Below, in pieces: positions 25,777-57,224 of a stretch of 64,000 nucleotides of DNA. A program made the translations under genes and the position numbers. Positions within the stretch are counted from its first letter, which is position 1; every line of letters begins with the position of its first letter. The notes under the pieces were generated by a model. That model was not told where the DNA came from. It did not search any database and saw nothing but the letters and a program-made list of their open reading frames with translations. Origin of the DNA: Pedobacter arcticus A12 (GTDB taxonomy: Bacteria; Bacteroidota; Bacteroidia; Sphingobacteriales; Sphingobacteriaceae); the NCBI RefSeq assembly GCF_000302595.1, contig NZ_JH947127.1, positions 514,126 through 578,125 of the forward strand. Direction: 5' to 3'.

Positions 25777-26838
25777 CTAAACCTGTGGCTCTTGCTGACT
25801 TAAACAATGGAAACTACCCAAACCCCAGATAATATCTGTAGAGTCTATACCAACGGTTTCTCTCTCTGGAAAGCATTTCGCTATAATTTCTAACGCAGTT
25901 TCATCCTTATCGCATCGGTAAGTCGGCACAATTACGTGAGCATTGCTAATGTAAAAATTTGCGTAAGAAGCTGGCAATCGAGTATCCTCAAAAATCACCG
26001 CATCGGGCATTGGTAATTCAATGATGTTAAGCGCCTCACCATTTGGCAAACGCATAGCTCTCAGTTCTTCTAAATTGGTTTGTAGTAACTCGTAGTTTTC
26101 ATCTTCCAGATTATCTTCAACTACGGTTAAAACGGTGTTATGGTTTACAAAACGTATAGTATCATCAATATGTCCGTCGGTATCATCTCCTACAATGCCA
26201 TCACTTACCCAAAGCACTTGTTTTTGTCCGTAATAATCTTTTAAATATTGTTCAACCTGTTGCTGGTTCAGTTGCGGATTTCTGTTGGTGTTCAACAAAC
26301 AACTCTTAGAAGTTAAAACAGTTCCTTCGCCATTAAATTCTACAGAACCACCTTCCATAATAATTCCTGGATGGTAAACCGGAATATTAAAATGTGCACC
26401 AATTTTGGTCGGGATTACATCATCTAAATCAAAGGGAGGATATTTTCCGCCCCAAGCGTTAAAATCCCAATCAACAATTACTTTCTTTTGCTCAGCATCT
26501 GGGTTCACTAAAAACGCAGGTCCATGATCTCGGCACCAGGCATCGTTACTTGGGTTAAAGTAAAACTCAACCTGCTTCAAATCAGCTCCAGCTTGTGCAA
26601 TATATTTTAAAGCAAAAGCTTTCATTTTCTCATCAATCACGTTGATACGAACCTTTTCAGATAATGCCAGATATTTAATAAACTCTGCATATTTAGGATA
26701 AATAGCATCAATTTTCCCTGGCCAACTTTCTTCTTTATGTGGCCAAGTTAGCCAAGTAGCTTCATGCTTTGCCCACTCGGGTGGGAAGGTGTAGCCGTAA
26801 GGAGTAAGATTGTCATTGGTCGATGGTCGATGGTCCAT
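25777..26838 (-). CDS. aguA: Agmatine deiminase
   Basis: A 353-residue guanidino-group hydrolase that turns agmatine into N-carbamoylputrescine. Hallmarks are 'EWAKHEATWLTWPHKEESWPG' (landmark HEATWLTWPH), 'NDAWCRDHGPAF' (about 97-108), 'IIMEGGSVEFNGEGT', 'GDDTDGHIDDTIRF' and the catalytic cysteine in 'GSFHCLSQQEP' (Cys345). The only ATG in frame, at 26838, lies inside a heptad repeat array, so the first nine residues (MDHRPSTND) are repeat-encoded and the conserved protein begins at about residue 12. Normally it is paired with aguB; here a four-helix-bundle gene separates them. Confidence 0.93.
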   Translation of the reverse strand: MDHRPSTNDNLTPYGYTFPPEWAKHEATWLTWPHKEESWPGKIDAIYPKYAEFIKYLALSEKVRINVIDEKMKAFALKYIAQAGADLKQVEFYFNPSNDAWCRDHGPAFLVNPDAEQKKVIVDWDFNAWGGKYPPFDLDDVIPTKIGAHFNIPVYHPGIIMEGGSVEFNGEGTVLTSKSCLLNTNRNPQLNQQQVEQYLKDYYGQKQVLWVSDGIVGDDTDGHIDDTIRFVNHNTVLTVVEDNLEDENYELLQTNLEELRAMRLPNGEALNIIELPMPDAVIFEDTRLPASYANFYISNAHVIVPTYRCDKDETALEIIAKCFPERETVGIDSTDIIWGLGSFHCLSQQEPQV

Positions 26839-26844
26839 AGTTAT
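26810..26844. repeat. Heptad repeat array, left arm of the four-helix-bundle cassette
   Basis: Five tandem 7-mers: TTGTCAT, TGGTCGA, TGGTCGA, TGGTCCA and TAGTTAT. The complement has the form TNGACNA, the same heptad as the arm at 27237-27271, so the two arms are inverted. The array covers the last bases of the four-helix-bundle gene and the first codons of aguA. Confidence 0.8.
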
Positions 26845-27194
26845 AGCGTGTTTCTTAATGCGGTTATCTTTTTTGATAAGATTTCGATATCCGTGTATAA
26901 TTCTTTAAATTGTTCTTCGCTGATATAATTTCTTCTTTTTGCTAAAAATACACATGACACAACTTCGATTCCTGAACGTAGTGCATAGCCTAAGAAATTT
27001 TTAAATACCGCATTTGTTTGTCCTGTACAACCCTCCGCAATATTTAAAACGATTGAGTCGGCCGCTCTCCTTATTTGAGGAGTCAATATAAATCTTTCGT
27101 CTTTCGGGAAATGATCTTTAGTCATCAATAATATTTTATCATTGACATCCATGGCGTCATGCCAAACCTTTAAGCTTTCAAATTTAAATGCCAT
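26841..27194 (-). CDS. Four-helix-bundle protein (23S rRNA intervening-sequence type)
   Basis: A 117-residue all-helical protein: 'FESLKVWHDAMDVNDKILLMT' (landmark LKVWHDAMD), 'PQIRRAADSIVLNIAEGCTGQT' (landmark RRAADSIVLNIAEG), 'FLGYALRSGIEVVSCVFLAKRRNYI' (landmark ALRSGIEV). This is the family first found inside intervening sequences of 23S rRNA and related to diversity-generating-element accessory proteins; most copies are free-standing in Bacteroidota genomes. Molecular function is unknown. It sits between aguA and aguB, which otherwise belong to one pathway, and is bracketed by inverted heptad arrays, which suggests insertion as a cassette. Confidence 0.88.
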   Translation of the reverse strand: MAFKFESLKVWHDAMDVNDKILLMTKDHFPKDERFILTPQIRRAADSIVLNIAEGCTGQTNAVFKNFLGYALRSGIEVVSCVFLAKRRNYISEEQFKELYTDIEILSKKITALRNTL

Positions 27195-27236
27195 AGCTAT
27201 TATTTAACAGTAAAAAGTTGAATTTCTATATTCTTC

Positions 27237-27271
27237 CAGACTATGGACTATCGACAATGGACCATGGACTA
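27237..27271. repeat. Heptad repeat array, right arm of the four-helix-bundle cassette
   Basis: Five tandem 7-mers, CAGACTA, TGGACTA, TCGACAA, TGGACCA and TGGACTA, in strict seven-base phase, ending five bases before the aguB stop codon. They are inverted relative to the arm at 26810-26844. Confidence 0.82.
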
Positions 27272-27275
27272 AAAA

Positions 27276-28148
27276 CTACTCCTCATCAATAAATCGCTTC
27301 ACAATTTGACCATAAGAATCAATACGGCGGTCTCTTAAAAACGGCCAATGTATGCGATAGCTATCAGATTTTCCTAAATCCACTTCCTGCACATGAACTT
27401 CCTCGTTATCAACAGAACCTTTGTACAACAGTCTTCCGAATGGGTTGGAAATGAAAGAACCGCCCCAAAACTTAACGCCGGCTTCTTCGCCAACTCGGTT
27501 TACTCCGACTACATGTACGCCATTTGCAATGGCATGAGAGCTTTGGATAGTTTGCCAAGCGTTGTGTTGCTCGTCGTTAGTTGCTTGATCTTGTGTGGTT
27601 GCCCAACCAATTGCTGTTGGATAAAATAAAATCTCGGCACCCTTTAAAGCAGTTAAACGGGCAGCTTCTGGATACCACTGATCCCAACATATTAAAACAC
27701 CGATGGTTGCAAATTTGGTTTTAAAAACCTTATAGCCTAAATCACCCGGAGTGAAATAAAATTTTTCGTAAAAACCAGGATCATCCGGAATATGCATTTT
27801 ACGGTACTTACCTAAATAAGAACCATCAGCATCTAAAACCGCAGTGGTGTTATGGTAAATTCCTTCGGTACGTTTTTCAAAAAGAGAAGCAATAATAACT
27901 ACACCCAACTCGCCAGCGAGTTTCTGCAACGCATCTGTAGATGGACCAGGAATAGTTTCTGCCAAAGCAAAATTGTCGTAATCTTCAACATCACAAAAAT
28001 ATAATGAGGTAAAAAGCTCCTGTAAACAGATAATCTGCGCACCTTTCTCGGCAGCTTCTCTTATCCTGATGGATGCTTTCTCTAAATTATCTTCTTTGTT
28101 TGGCGAGCAAGACATCTGCACCAAGCCTAGCTTTACGTTTTTCTTCAT
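27276..28148 (-). CDS. aguB: N-carbamoylputrescine amidase (nitrilase superfamily)
   Basis: A 290-residue carbon-nitrogen hydrolase that releases putrescine, CO2 and ammonia from N-carbamoylputrescine, the step after AguA. The Glu-Lys-Cys triad is visible in 'CLQELFTSLYF' (Glu44), 'GKYRKMHIPDDPGFYEKFYF' (landmark YRKMHIPDD, Lys117) and 'GVLICWDQWYPEAAR' (Cys154). 'WGGSFISNPFG' and 'HWPFLRDRRIDSYG' are further family marks. The length equals the known AguB enzymes. Transcribed towards aguA on the same strand. Confidence 0.93.
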   Translation of the reverse strand: MKKNVKLGLVQMSCSPNKEDNLEKASIRIREAAEKGAQIICLQELFTSLYFCDVEDYDNFALAETIPGPSTDALQKLAGELGVVIIASLFEKRTEGIYHNTTAVLDADGSYLGKYRKMHIPDDPGFYEKFYFTPGDLGYKVFKTKFATIGVLICWDQWYPEAARLTALKGAEILFYPTAIGWATTQDQATNDEQHNAWQTIQSSHAIANGVHVVGVNRVGEEAGVKFWGGSFISNPFGRLLYKGSVDNEEVHVQEVDLGKSDSYRIHWPFLRDRRIDSYGQIVKRFIDEE

Positions 28149-30942: not shown

Positions 30943-30990
30943 GCTCGGTTTATTAACCACAAAGCAGACCAAGTATTTACCATCCAACAC

Positions 30991-31050
30991 TTTTTACTTT
31001 TTACTTTTTACTTTTTACTTTTTACTTTTTACTTTTTACTTTTTACTTTT
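30991..31050. repeat. Perfect heptamer array TTTTTAC x8
   Basis: Eight identical TTTTTAC units plus TTTT, without interruption. It lies between the hppA terminator and the mnmA promoter box. A short open frame that runs through it encodes only a Phe/Tyr/Leu repeat and is rejected as a gene. Confidence 0.95.
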
Positions 31051-31109
31051 CTAAATCAAATCTTACTTCCAGTTGACCACGCCTAATTCCGCATCCAAAA
31101 ATTAAAAAT

Positions 31110-49753: not shown

Positions 49754-49817
49754 TTTGTAATTCTTAATCCATACTTTCTACTTATTACTTTCTACTTATT
49801 ACTTATAACCTATTACC
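49751..49817. repeat. Heptad repeat array filling the gap before manA (TACTTAT type)
   Basis: Nine successive 7-mers in strict phase: TAATTTG, TAATTCT, TAATCCA, TACTTTC, TACTTAT, TACTTTC, TACTTAT, TACTTAT and AACCTAT, then TACC. The first overlaps the stop codon of the sugar transferase and the last ends three bases before the manA start, so the entire intergenic region is array. Confidence 0.88.
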
Positions 49818-49820
49818 AAA

Positions 49821-50795
49821 ATGCTATATCCACTAAAATTCAAAACTATATTTAAAGACAAAATATGGGGCGGAGAAAAAATTAAAACCTATTTAGGAAA
49901 AGATTTTGCTCCCCTACCCAACTGTGGCGAAACCTGGGAAATATCTGGTGTAAAATCTGATGTTTCTATCATCGCAAACGGCCCATTAACCGGTACTTCA
50001 CTTGCACAACTTTTAGCTGATCAAAAAGGCGAACTCATCGGTAAAAAAAATTATGAAAGATTTGGGAATGAGTTTCCGTTATTGATCAAGTTTATTGATG
50101 CTAATGAAGATCTTTCTATTCAGGTCCACCCAAATGATGAACTAGCTGAAAAGCGCCATGGCTCTAAAGGAAAAACAGAGATGTGGTATGTTTTACAAGC
50201 AGATGAAGGTGCTACTTTAATTTCGGGATTTAACCAAAAACTTGATAAAGAAACTTATCTAAAAAAATTCAATGCTGGCGAATTAAGCGATATTTTAAAT
50301 AAAGAAGAAGTTAAAGCTGGCGATGTATTCTTTTTACCTGCTGGTCGTGTTCATACCATTGGTAAAGGCTTATTGATTGCAGAAATTCAGCAAACCTCGG
50401 ACATTACTTACAGAATTTACGATTTTGACCGTGTAGATGACCAGGGGAACAAAAGAGAGTTACATGTTGAAGAAGCATTAGACGCTATTGATTATACTTT
50501 TTACGACGAGTATAAAACAAAATACAACGACACCATCAACGAGCCGGTGGCATTAGTTGACTGTAAATATTTTACAACCAATATTTTAACCTACACAGAA
50601 GATACATTAAGGGACTACAGCGCCAATGACAGTTTTGTAATTCATGTTTGTGTGGAAGGTTCTTATATTTTAAAGTATGGAATTGAAGAATTACCTGTAC
50701 AAATGGGCGATTGTGTTTTAATTCCGGCAACCACAGAAAAAGTTGTACTAAGTACAAACAAAAGCTTTAAAATATTAGAAAGTTATATTGGTTAA
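49821..50795 (+). CDS. manA: Mannose-6-phosphate isomerase, class I
   Basis: A 324-residue zinc enzyme that interconverts fructose-6-phosphate and mannose-6-phosphate and feeds GDP-mannose synthesis. Zinc ligands are seen in 'LSIQVHPNDELAEKRHGSKGKTEMWYVL' (landmarks IQVHPND and GKTEMWYVL) and 'AGRVHTIGKG'. 'ETWEISGV' and 'IYDFDRVD' are conserved. Length matches the short Bacillus-type enzymes. Placed at the end of the exopolysaccharide locus, so it likely supplies mannose or fucose precursors. Confidence 0.92.
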   Translation: MLYPLKFKTIFKDKIWGGEKIKTYLGKDFAPLPNCGETWEISGVKSDVSIIANGPLTGTSLAQLLADQKGELIGKKNYERFGNEFPLLIKFIDANEDLSIQVHPNDELAEKRHGSKGKTEMWYVLQADEGATLISGFNQKLDKETYLKKFNAGELSDILNKEEVKAGDVFFLPAGRVHTIGKGLLIAEIQQTSDITYRIYDFDRVDDQGNKRELHVEEALDAIDYTFYDEYKTKYNDTINEPVALVDCKYFTTNILTYTEDTLRDYSANDSFVIHVCVEGSYILKYGIEELPVQMGDCVLIPATTEKVVLSTNKSFKILESYIG

Positions 50796-53068: not shown

Positions 53069-53953
53069 TTATCCGTTAGATAATGCAGCAGCACCACTCA
53101 CAATCTCAGAAAGCTCTGTAGTAATTGCAGCTTGACGGGCTTGGTTATAAGCTAATTTTAATTTTTTTAATAGATCCCCAGCGTTATCGGTTGCTTTGTC
53201 CATCGCTGTCATTCTTGCGCCATGCTCTGAAGCATGAGAATCTAAAACCGCTTTATATAATTGCAATTTGATGTTTTTAGGGATCAACTGTTCAACAATT
53301 TCTTTTTGAGAAGGTTCCAAAATATAATCTACTTGATTAGCAGATGTGTTTTCGGTTTGTGCAACTTTAGGTACAGGCAATAACTGCTCAGTAGTTAAAA
53401 TCTGCATTGCTGCATTTTTAAACTGATTGTAAATCACCTCAACTTTATCGTATTTACCATCTACAAAACCTTGCATAATGGCTTCAGTAATTGTAGAGAT
53501 ATTCTCAAAATTTAAAGCGCCGTATACTTCATTATTGTTTCCGATAACGTTGTACTTACGTTTCTCATAATAATCATGTGCCTTTTTACCAATCGCAATA
53601 ATGTTCAAATTTCCAGACTGGTGGAAAGTGTTATACTTATCGGCAATAAGGTTGTTGGCAGTTTTAATTACGTTGGTATTAAAAGCGCCGGCCAAACCAC
53701 GGTTTGATGTCACTACAACAACCAAAACGTTTTTAACTTCACGCTCTTGAGTATAAACAGAAACTCCATCTTCTAAACTAGCAGAAAGATTAGCCAAAAT
53801 TTCCTTAAGCTTATTAGCATAGGGACGCAATTGTATAATGGCGTTAGTTGCTCTTTTTAACTTAGCAGCCGAAACCATTTTCATTGCTTTGGTAATTTGC
53901 TGTGTAGAGCTTACCGATGCTATTCTGATTCTTACTTCTTTTAAATTTGCCAT
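53069..53953 (-). CDS. atpG: F1F0 ATP synthase gamma subunit
   Basis: A 294-residue central stalk subunit. The start at 53953 gives the classic 'MANLKEVRIRIASVSSTQQITKAMKMVSAAKL' (landmarks ITKAMKMVSAAKL); nine extra upstream codons fall inside a repeat array. The C-terminus 'SEHGARMTAMDKATDNAGDLLKKL' (landmark ARMTAMDKATDNA) and 'NQARQAAITTELSEIVSGAAA' is fully conserved. Last gene of the operon; beta (atpD) and epsilon (atpC) are not here, as is usual in Bacteroidota where they lie elsewhere. Confidence 0.95.
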   Translation of the reverse strand: MANLKEVRIRIASVSSTQQITKAMKMVSAAKLKRATNAIIQLRPYANKLKEILANLSASLEDGVSVYTQEREVKNVLVVVVTSNRGLAGAFNTNVIKTANNLIADKYNTFHQSGNLNIIAIGKKAHDYYEKRKYNVIGNNNEVYGALNFENISTITEAIMQGFVDGKYDKVEVIYNQFKNAAMQILTTEQLLPVPKVAQTENTSANQVDYILEPSQKEIVEQLIPKNIKLQLYKAVLDSHASEHGARMTAMDKATDNAGDLLKKLKLAYNQARQAAITTELSEIVSGAAALSNG

Positions 53954-53956
53954 TTT

Positions 53957-54028
53957 ATAGTATCGAGTATTTAGTATCAAGTATCAAGATGAATGCAGTC
54001 TTGATACTTGATACTTTTGTCTTGCTAC
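53957..54028. repeat. Palindromic heptad array between atpA and atpG (AGTATCA type)
   Basis: Left arm ATAGTAT, CGAGTAT, TTAGTAT, CAAGTAT, CAAGATG (53957-53991) and right arm TTGATAC, TTGATAC, TTTTGTC, TTGCTAC (54001-54028) face each other around nine bases. AGTATCAAGTATCAAGA pairs with TCTTGATACTTGATACT, so the message can form a long hairpin just before the atpG start. Confidence 0.88.
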
Positions 54029-56231: not shown

Positions 56232-56241
56232 ATTTGTAGAG

Positions 56242-56315
56242 TTGAAAGTTAAAGGTTTAAAGTTTAAAGGCTAAGCCTACTTTTAACTTTTAACTTTATA
56301 CTTTTAACTTCTTAG
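56242..56315. repeat. Palindromic heptad array between atpF and atpH (TTTAAAG type)
   Basis: Left arm TTGAAAG, TTAAAGG, TTTAAAG, TTTAAAG, GCTAAGC (56242-56276) and right arm TTTTAAC, TTTTAAC, TTTATAC, TTTTAAC, TTCTTAG (56281-56315) in opposite orientation around four bases. The right arm overlaps the atpF stop codon. Confidence 0.85.
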
Positions 56316-56806
56316 TTCAATTTCACATCTTTCAACAAGTCGCTTACTAGAGCATCTTGTTTTTGTTTATCATCAAACTGCTTACGCAAAACCTTTTCCG
56401 CAATCTCTAAAGATAGAGAGGCAACTTGGTTTTTAACTTCGTCTAAAGCAGCAATTTTTTGGTTGTTAATCTCGATTTTAGCTTTCTCGATCAACTTAGC
56501 ACCTTCTGTTTGTGCAGCGTTTTTAGCTTCGGCAACAATCTGGTCTTTTAACTCCTTTGCTTCTTTTAGAATCTGGTCACGCTCAACTCTTGCTTCTTTT
56601 AACAATGCTTCGTTTTCGGTTGATAAACGAGACATTTCTGCTCGGGCAAGTTCGGCTTTGTTTAAAGCATCTTCAATTGAACGTTCACGGTCATGAATTG
56701 CAGCCAAAACAGGTTTCCAAGCTAATTTCTTCAATAGCATCAGGAGGATCAAAAATGATACTAATGTCCAGAATACTAAGCCAATACTAGGAGTTACTAA
56801 TTCCAT
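56312..56806 (-). CDS. atpF: F1F0 ATP synthase b subunit
   Basis: A 164-residue peripheral stalk subunit. One N-terminal membrane helix (about 8-26, 'IGLVFWTLVSFLILLMLLKKLAW') with 'KPVLAAIHDRERSIEDALNKAE' after it (landmark LAAIHDRERSI), then a continuous charged coiled coil to the C-terminus 'LDEVKNQVASLSLEIAEKVL'. Length and sequence match the b subunit family. The atpE-atpF gap carries a long hairpin. Confidence 0.95.
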   Translation of the reverse strand: MELVTPSIGLVFWTLVSFLILLMLLKKLAWKPVLAAIHDRERSIEDALNKAELARAEMSRLSTENEALLKEARVERDQILKEAKELKDQIVAEAKNAAQTEGAKLIEKAKIEINNQKIAALDEVKNQVASLSLEIAEKVLRKQFDDKQKQDALVSDLLKDVKLN

Positions 56807-57156: not shown

Positions 57157-57224
57157 AGAGCAAAGTCAAGACTACAAATTGGTCTTTAATCTTTACTCTT
57201 TTTTCTTGACTCTTAACTCTATTT
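57157..57224. repeat. Palindromic heptad array between atpB and atpE (TCTTNNN type)
   Basis: Left arm AGAGCAA, AGTCAAG, ACTACAA (57157-57177) and right arm TCTTTAA, TCTTTAC, TCTTTTT, TCTTGAC, TCTTAAC, TCTATTT (57183-57224) in exact seven-base phase. GTCAAGA of the left arm pairs with TCTTGAC of the right. The right arm ends in the atpB stop codon. Confidence 0.85.

Follow-up and report, generated by a model that had tools for sequence, protein, structure and literature searches.

An S23 four-helix-bundle gene enclosed by inverted heptad arrays in Pedobacter arcticus as part of a probable mobile element without its own transposase

Among the closest described counterparts of the locus analyzed here are the intervening sequences of 23S rRNA. 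In Coxiella, such a sequence lies in helix 45 and carries an open reading frame (ORF) of the S23 family between complementary ends (PMC4990558). Here, we analyzed a 64,000-nucleotide stretch of the genome of Pedobacter arcticus A12 (contig NZ_JH947127.1, positions 514,126 to 578,125; hereafter, the window), in which a gene for an S23 protein lies between aguB and aguA, enclosed by inverted arrays of seven-base units, or heptads. Elements of this kind share with the 23S rRNA intervening sequences the S23-family ORF between complementary terminal arms, which the window copy also displays, and a size of about 0.43 kb; one of them (L309, below) itself lies within 23S rRNA. In contrast, the window copy (L004 in our collection) gave no rRNA match and is not inside a 23S rRNA gene, 19 of the 20 S23 loci scanned lie outside rRNA, the arms consist of tandem heptads, arm-only copies exist, and a 5-bp direct repeat borders the element in two cases. 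We consider it probable that the gene and its two arms constitute one small mobile element without a transposase, the S23 protein of which would recognize its own heptads.

Tandem heptads themselves have precedents. Heptanucleotides of the short tandemly repeated repetitive (STRR) type were reportedly first described in 1990. Cyanobacterial STRR heptanucleotides and G-rich heptamers of Xanthomonas and Nostoc are on record (PMC4692102, PMC2670836, PMC2408588). The Xanthomonas heptamers mostly comprise four units and form 70 and 75 convergent inverted pairs in two genomes, few inverted pairs occur in Nostoc, and heptamer repeats are described as generally not associated with mobile elements (PMC4692102). 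The available text of that paper mentions neither S23 nor four helix, and Xcc0516, the Xanthomonas S23 protein with a solved structure, is not named in its main text. The TAACTGA heptamer repeats of Beggiatoaceae, Cyanobacteria, and Bacteroidetes are direct and lie mostly just upstream of start codons; they resemble the present arrays in being intergenic, in occurring partly in the same phyla, and in being scattered as if transferred, and the main text of that report, as available, contains neither S23 nor four helix (PMC4679880). The arrays described here are likewise tandem, degenerate 7-nucleotide (nt) units with a G-rich strand in intergenic DNA, a likeness to the named STRR classes that is one of layout only. 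They differ from the STRR and Xanthomonas heptamers in that they bracket S23 genes.

A further parallel is provided by REPINs, which are dispersed, gene-less inverted-repeat hairpins; their repeats also flank a resident protein gene. That gene encodes RAYT, a Y1 transposase, and RAYT transposases are thought to maintain the REPINs. Here, in contrast, the units are tandem heptads, and the gene flanked by repeats at the locus encodes S23 and not a Y1 (HUH) transposase, a statement about the locus, since the genome was not searched for Y1. We know of no catalytic site in S23.

The original prediction had assigned the 117-residue window protein to the four-helix-bundle family of the 23S rRNA intervening sequences, and profile searches bear this out, with scores of 108.9 bits against PF05635 (cut-off, 33.8; E value, 1.8e-31) and 99.5 bits against TIGR02436 (cut-off, 24). 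An AlphaFold model of the protein is a helical bundle (pLDDT 93) with the four-helix-bundle fold of solved S23 members; its best PDB matches are 2gsc (TM 0.84-0.87) and 2rld (TM 0.81-0.85, both by query length), and both entries contain five chains. The two inward-facing, complementary arrays are also present as described, forming an inverted pair of 30 nt (26812-26841 and 27240-27269) that is 83% complementary. Matches to three TNGTCNA units (up to one mismatch) and to four TNGACNA units (up to two mismatches) were confined, within the 64-kb window, to the two S23 arms, each of which gave five overlapping matches, compared with means of 0.01 and 0.00 in 100 shuffles. The predicted count of five heptads on each side was slightly generous: in the left arm, three heptads are exact (26817-26837), another has a mismatch (26810-26816), and a further one is incomplete, and the right arm has four exact heptads (27244-27271) and one with a mismatch (27237-27243). 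In the predicted minimum-energy fold of the element's transcript, the arms are paired (z -3.35). The 3' arm spans the aguA start codon, and therefore the first AguA residues are encoded by the arm. The best match of aguB is TIGR03381 and those of aguA are two agmatine deiminase models, all under the NCBIfam cut-offs. The features of the window are listed in Table 1.

Table 1. Positions of the S23 gene, its arms, neighboring genes, and other heptad arrays in the window
Feature	Position	Strand	Evidence
S23 / 23S_rRNA_IVP four-helix-bundle gene, 117 aa	26841..27194	-	ORF list; PF05635 and TIGR02436 profiles; AlphaFold model
5' arm (sense strand), heptads TAGTCCA TGGTCCA TTGTCGA TAGTCCA TAGTCTG, just past the aguB stop codon	27237..27271	-	
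3' arm (sense strand), heptads complementary to the 5' arm, includes the aguA start codon	26810..26841	-	
aguB, N-carbamoylputrescine amidase type, upstream neighbor	27276..28148	-	TIGR03381, E 3.2e-93, under curated cut-off
aguA, agmatine deiminase type, downstream neighbor	25777..26838	-	PF04371; TIGR03380 under cut-off
Inverted heptad hairpin (AAAGTTT type), no S23 gene, atpF-atpH spacer	56234..56319	.	RNA fold z -2.9
Inverted heptad hairpin (AGTATCA type), array only, between ATP synthase gamma and alpha genes	53952..54018	.	RNA fold z -7.2
Heptad array (CTTTAAT/CTTGACT type) between ATP synthase c and a genes	57179..57221	.	
Heptad array TACTTTC/TACTTAT, intergenic spacer, one orientation	49770..49821	.	
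Heptad array ACTTTTT, 8.9 near-perfect copies, one orientation	30978..31060	.	

Heptad arms were then compared across three sets of loci. The genus set comprised 89 S23 loci, from 91 PF05635 matches less two second halves of broken genes in genome G002; the order set comprised 89 PF05635 loci (29 + 60), the best among the matches listed; and the controls were 336 other ORFs, all taken from 464 kb of the window's genome. Mean autocorrelation of the S23 flanks over lags 3 to 21 was highest at lag 7, followed by lags 14 and 21. When single loci were scored at lags 4 to 12, lag 7 was the best at 66/89 genus and 79/89 order loci (145/178), with lag 8 as runner-up (8/89 and 9/89), and again at 18 of 24 plasmid loci, so that the expectation of period-7 arrays around other family members withstood its test. 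Both flanks scored at least 17/28 at lag 7 at 35/89 genus and 48/89 order loci versus 3/336 controls. An inverted-arm score of at least 13 was reached at 65/89 and 78/89 S23 loci versus 15/336 controls, and one of at least 15 at 51/89 and 65/89 versus 2/336. The arms also have a polarity: among the 83 loci with both arms at 17/28 or above, 66 are G rich upstream and C rich downstream, 1 is reversed, and 16 are mixed. Within loci the two arms match each other, since the pairing total of own arms at 80 genus loci was 1270, compared with a mean of 1077 (standard deviation, 32; maximum, 1196) when arms were swapped within sites. Arrays that scored at least 11 had a median length of 4.4 to 5 units, most commonly 4. 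By a simple ORF call, S23 was co-directional with both neighbors at 78/86 and 81/89 loci, and 12 of the 91 S23 rows of the genus search contained internal stop codons. One S23 subfamily (L055 and L041) is flanked by long arrays of GTTAG/TTTGTTAG-like units in which period 8 outscores 7, which suggests that the repeat period is a subfamily trait.

Evidence for movement came from plasmids. L313 differs from the empty plasmid L321, with flanks 97-99% identical, by a 428-bp insertion with an exact 5-bp repeat, GTAAT, on each side, and L324 differs from the empty L323 (91-92% identical) by a 417-bp insertion with an exact TTCTA on each side; both repeats overlap a stop codon. In one three-gene operon, two junctions are occupied by different elements (L271 and L324), with L323 empty, and all three plasmid elements that have an empty counterpart sit at stop/start junctions. 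In addition, copies of one element, aligned over 416-419 bp at 78-82% identity, occur at three otherwise unalignable plasmid sites, and homology stops at the arms. Locus L325 has the appearance of a decayed copy in which the left arm remains and the gene is truncated, and arm-only matches are present on other plasmids. As in transposable elements, there are filled and empty sites with a target-site duplication, the 5-bp repeats being found in two of the three plasmid pairs; S23 is the single annotated gene in the 414- to 506-bp insertions, which carry no recombinase of their own. The proposal of a mobile cassette without its own transposase is thus well supported because empty sites exist, above all the plasmid pairs.

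The same data could be read differently if the arms were the ends of a miniature inverted-repeat transposable element (MITE), the nonautonomous derivative of an ordinary transposon whose transposase is encoded elsewhere, with S23 as passenger cargo. Direct repeats of 5 bp are typical of several transposon families, arm-only matches exist, and transposase or integrase genes adjoin the plasmid S23 genes at L275, L310, L317, and L319. However, across several phyla the cargo belongs to one protein family, heptads follow the S23 sequence among close pairs, and no transposase-encoding element with heptad arms was noticed, though no search was aimed at such elements. We therefore regard passenger cargo as rather improbable.

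The agu site itself was examined in 18 genomes of the genus. A clear aguA adjoins aguB in 14 of them (G010, G012, and G013 have no aguA within the fetched stretch, and G011 has a distant one only), and an S23 gene lies between the two at 11 of these 14 loci, interrupted by two stops in G007 and by one in G004. The element at the agu site, including the window copy, is old because the gene is present at this many of the genus loci. Empty sites, which the original prediction had proposed to look for here, were found: in G002 and G006, aguB and aguA are separated by neither an S23 gene nor arrays, and in G017 the gene is missing but an inverted heptad pair is present. The genomes with an empty agu site are too diverged from the window for a comparison of the kind made with plasmid pairs. 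The heptads at the site vary by species (TAGTCCA, AGTCCGA, and TGGTTCA), whereas complementarity between the arms of each locus is largely retained; when arms were swapped inside the two agu families alone, the observed pairing was reached by 0.3% and 0.8% of permutations.

Arm similarity was compared with S23 similarity among 199 of 215 loci, in 17,567 locus pairs without related flanking genes (tblastx check). Mean arm 6-mer cosine was 0.283 for the closest S23 pairs (q of at least 0.8, n = 19), 0.169, 0.114, and 0.093 in the next classes, and about 0.07 below these; all pairs with q of at least 0.5 had a mean arm similarity of 0.106 versus a permutation maximum of 0.090. The TAGTCCA-type heptads of the agu copies recur at two loci without an agu gene in the fetched stretch (L150 and L164) but not at L163, L166, and L169. 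A first test of protein against heptad within the genus gave no support because S23 subfamilies occupy conserved sites there, the 89 loci falling into 28 site clusters.

Heptads were also counted outside S23 loci, using five patterns in 18 genomes (90 genome-pattern cells; the AGTAGAA pattern was added after an earlier pattern count). Where a genome's own S23 arm resembled the pattern, the median was 6.5 and the mean 9.3 matches elsewhere (30 cells), versus a median of 0 and a mean of 1.6 otherwise (60 cells). The pattern AGTCCGA gave the clearest result: of the 8 genomes that have that S23, 7 showed 6-14 matches, and the remaining 10 genomes showed 0-4. The contrast gave a genome permutation p of 0.00025 (14 genomes), a value weakened by the choice of the five patterns after the arms were known, by test statistics that ignore phylogeny, and by counts of pattern matches, several of which may lie within one array.

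An origin of the heptads by replication slippage and template switching at inverted repeats, with S23 merely sitting in a few hairpins, would account for arms that match within a locus, as correction of quasi-palindromes would do. Such an origin leaves unexplained the excess of inverted arms at S23 loci over the controls, the similar heptads at unrelated sites with close S23 proteins, the many matches of one heptad family per genome, and the 5-bp direct repeats, and we find it very hard to credit.

Several further observations weigh against a mobile element that recognizes its own heptads. The third filled/empty comparison, L271 versus the empty L323, shows a 506-bp insertion at the next operon junction and no clean 5-bp repeat; around plasmid elements without an empty site, shared 5-mers were at chance level (7/20, versus 32% of mismatched pairs); and, in principle, each filled/empty pair could also have arisen by a deletion between short repeats. 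Direct arms outscore inverted arms at 4 of 24 plasmid loci (L274, L308, L317, and L318), and L268 has no arrays. Over all pairs, S23 and arm similarity gave a Spearman coefficient of 0.033, inside the permutation range, and the link between protein and heptad thus rests on close S23 pairs, some of which have unlike or missing arms (L163/L164 and L261/L149). Most S23 sites in the genus look vertically inherited, and therefore cotransmission of gene and arms could account for much of the match. Some genomes have matches without a matching arm of their own (8 TAGTCCA in G008, 8 and 12 GTATTGA in G001 and G004, 8 AGTAGAA in G001, and 10 AGTATCA in G005), whereas G015 (AGTCCGA) and G009 (TAGTCCA) have an arm and no matches elsewhere, and four more arm cells have one match. 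Finally, binding, excision, and transposition by the element are putative activities, deduced from sequence.

The plasmid set consisted of 24 hand-picked S23 loci, mainly cyanobacterial, with hosts that include Nostoc, Calothrix, Anabaena, Riemerella, Bernardetia, and Azospirillum. The best lag at loci other than the 18 with period 7 was 8 in four, 6 in one, and 9 in one; inverted arms outscored direct arms at 18/24 loci and tied with them at 2 (L268 and L315). A Gemmatirosa plasmid locus has period 8 in direct orientation, and long heptad or octad arrays flank S23 directly, not inverted, at L274 and L318. Three cyanobacterial plasmids (L266, L274, and L311) carry a repeat-armed S23 gene amid CRISPR-Cas genes, twice between cas6 and cas4 and once between cas10 and cmr3. 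On a Nostoc edaphicum plasmid (L316), the element lies antisense between two ribonucleotide reductase genes, unlike the usual co-directional placement. By eye and uncounted, heptad-like arms were seen at several of 7 S23 matches in a Lentisphaerales genome (G079) and at none of 3 in a metagenome-assembled Deltaproteobacteria genome (G078).

The single scanned locus inside large-subunit (LSU) rRNA is L309, on the Azospirillum lipoferum plasmid AZO_p2 (680-1160), where an S23 element with GAGGACG-type arms lies within a 23S rRNA gene, so that one rRNA intervening sequence has heptad arms. The insertion is at a hairpin near LSU model position 1218, a point that in our reading of the alignment may lie near helix 45. 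The collection's gene table, which omits RNA genes, lists nothing in this stretch.

Heptad arrays also occur without an S23 gene. In 464 kb of the window's genome, there are 14 lag-7 arrays, 10 of them mostly intergenic and one being the window S23 arm; comparison lags 4-6, 8, 10-13, and 15 gave 0-2 arrays each, lag 9 gave 20 (2 intergenic), and lag 14 gave 6. Some gene-less arrays are inverted pairs in spacers, two of which stand in the window's atp operon, where a third array stands alone; these three belong to three different heptad families. No obvious inverted partner of the ACTTTTT array was seen in the stretch read. Between atpF and atpH, 14 of the 18 genus genomes have an array (period 7 in 12 and 8 in 2), with inverted arms in 13; G009 has period 7 without inverted arms, and in the other 4 genomes the spacer is a 2-nt gap. 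By eye, the heptads at this spacer fall into five families across species.

The persistence of atpF-atpH arrays while the heptad family varies by species would suit a function in mRNA, in which the spacer hairpins serve stability, processing, or translational coupling, S23 is an autoregulated RNA-binding protein, and mobility is incidental and old. The predicted RNA folds are stable, and such roles have been proposed both for the 7-bp repeats of cyanobacteria (PMC2670836) and for those of the TAACTGA type (PMC4679880). However, four genomes have no hairpin at atpF-atpH, both the heptad family and its presence shift between species, the internal stops in S23 genes are of the kind found in dispensable or selfish genes, and the plasmid insertions and the occurrence of the same element at three sites are left unexplained. 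We consider a purely regulatory role unlikely.

We favor a mobile element of 0.42-0.5 kb in which inward-facing, G-rich heptads precede the S23 ORF and the same heptads follow it inverted, with no transposase. It typically stands between co-directional neighboring genes and in one case in 23S rRNA, as a classical intervening sequence. From the covariation of protein and heptads among close pairs, we infer that the helical protein may move the element by acting on the heptads. S23 would most likely recognize its own element's heptads, in the form of either DNA or RNA, and this recognition would maintain a population of hairpins that consist of arrays only, having lost the gene or never possessed it, comparable to RAYT and REPINs. 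DNA may be cut with the help of a host enzyme. Once transcribed, the arms are predicted to pair into a long stem, at which the host may cut the element from rRNA, as RNase III does with the stem of intervening sequences, or separate cistrons; by analogy with published rRNA intervening sequences, this would explain why the element is tolerated inside operons.

A reverse transcriptase acting with S23 in trans, with movement via RNA, is suggested by Avd of diversity-generating retroelements, a pentameric four-helix bundle that acts on nucleic acid with a partner. Avd is related to S23, and S23 genes are mostly sense oriented between genes. However, RVT_1 is absent from 11 of the 18 genus genomes, three of which (G005, G008, and G009) have S23 elements as well as heptad matches outside them, and neither the sequence matches nor the 50 Foldseek matches listed included a chain named Avd. 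A resident reverse transcriptase thus seems not to be required; as an obligatory partner it was rejected on this ground, and movement of this type is in our view highly improbable.

That S23 sits on the heptads as a pentameric ring is speculation. A broader proposal, which we offer tentatively and think may well be wrong, is that S23 is the core of transposase-less elements that cross phyla. The ring would read one heptad per subunit on a single strand, in a TRAP-like manner (five subunits by about five 7-nt heptads), with a heptad code for each S23 lineage. The class would then take in the STRRs of cyanobacteria, the heptamers of Xanthomonas and Bacteroidota, and the intervening sequences of 23S rRNA as autonomous, decayed, or gene-less members, mobilized by S23 and a ubiquitous host enzyme.

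Heptamer repeats (PMC4692102, PMC4679880, PMC2670836) and S23 proteins with rRNA intervening sequences (PMC4990558) are already in print separately. The original prediction took a link between them to be new, and consistent with this, the papers listed by searches of an open-access library included no report that joins S23 with heptad repeats. Of the solved S23 structures, two entries were found, neither with a named function. The link would merge three puzzles into one testable system, namely, the role of S23, the origin of heptanucleotide repeats in cyanobacteria, xanthomonads, and Bacteroidota, and the spread of 23S rRNA intervening sequences. It yields a prediction for genomes with many such repeats and offers a mobile element without a transposase.
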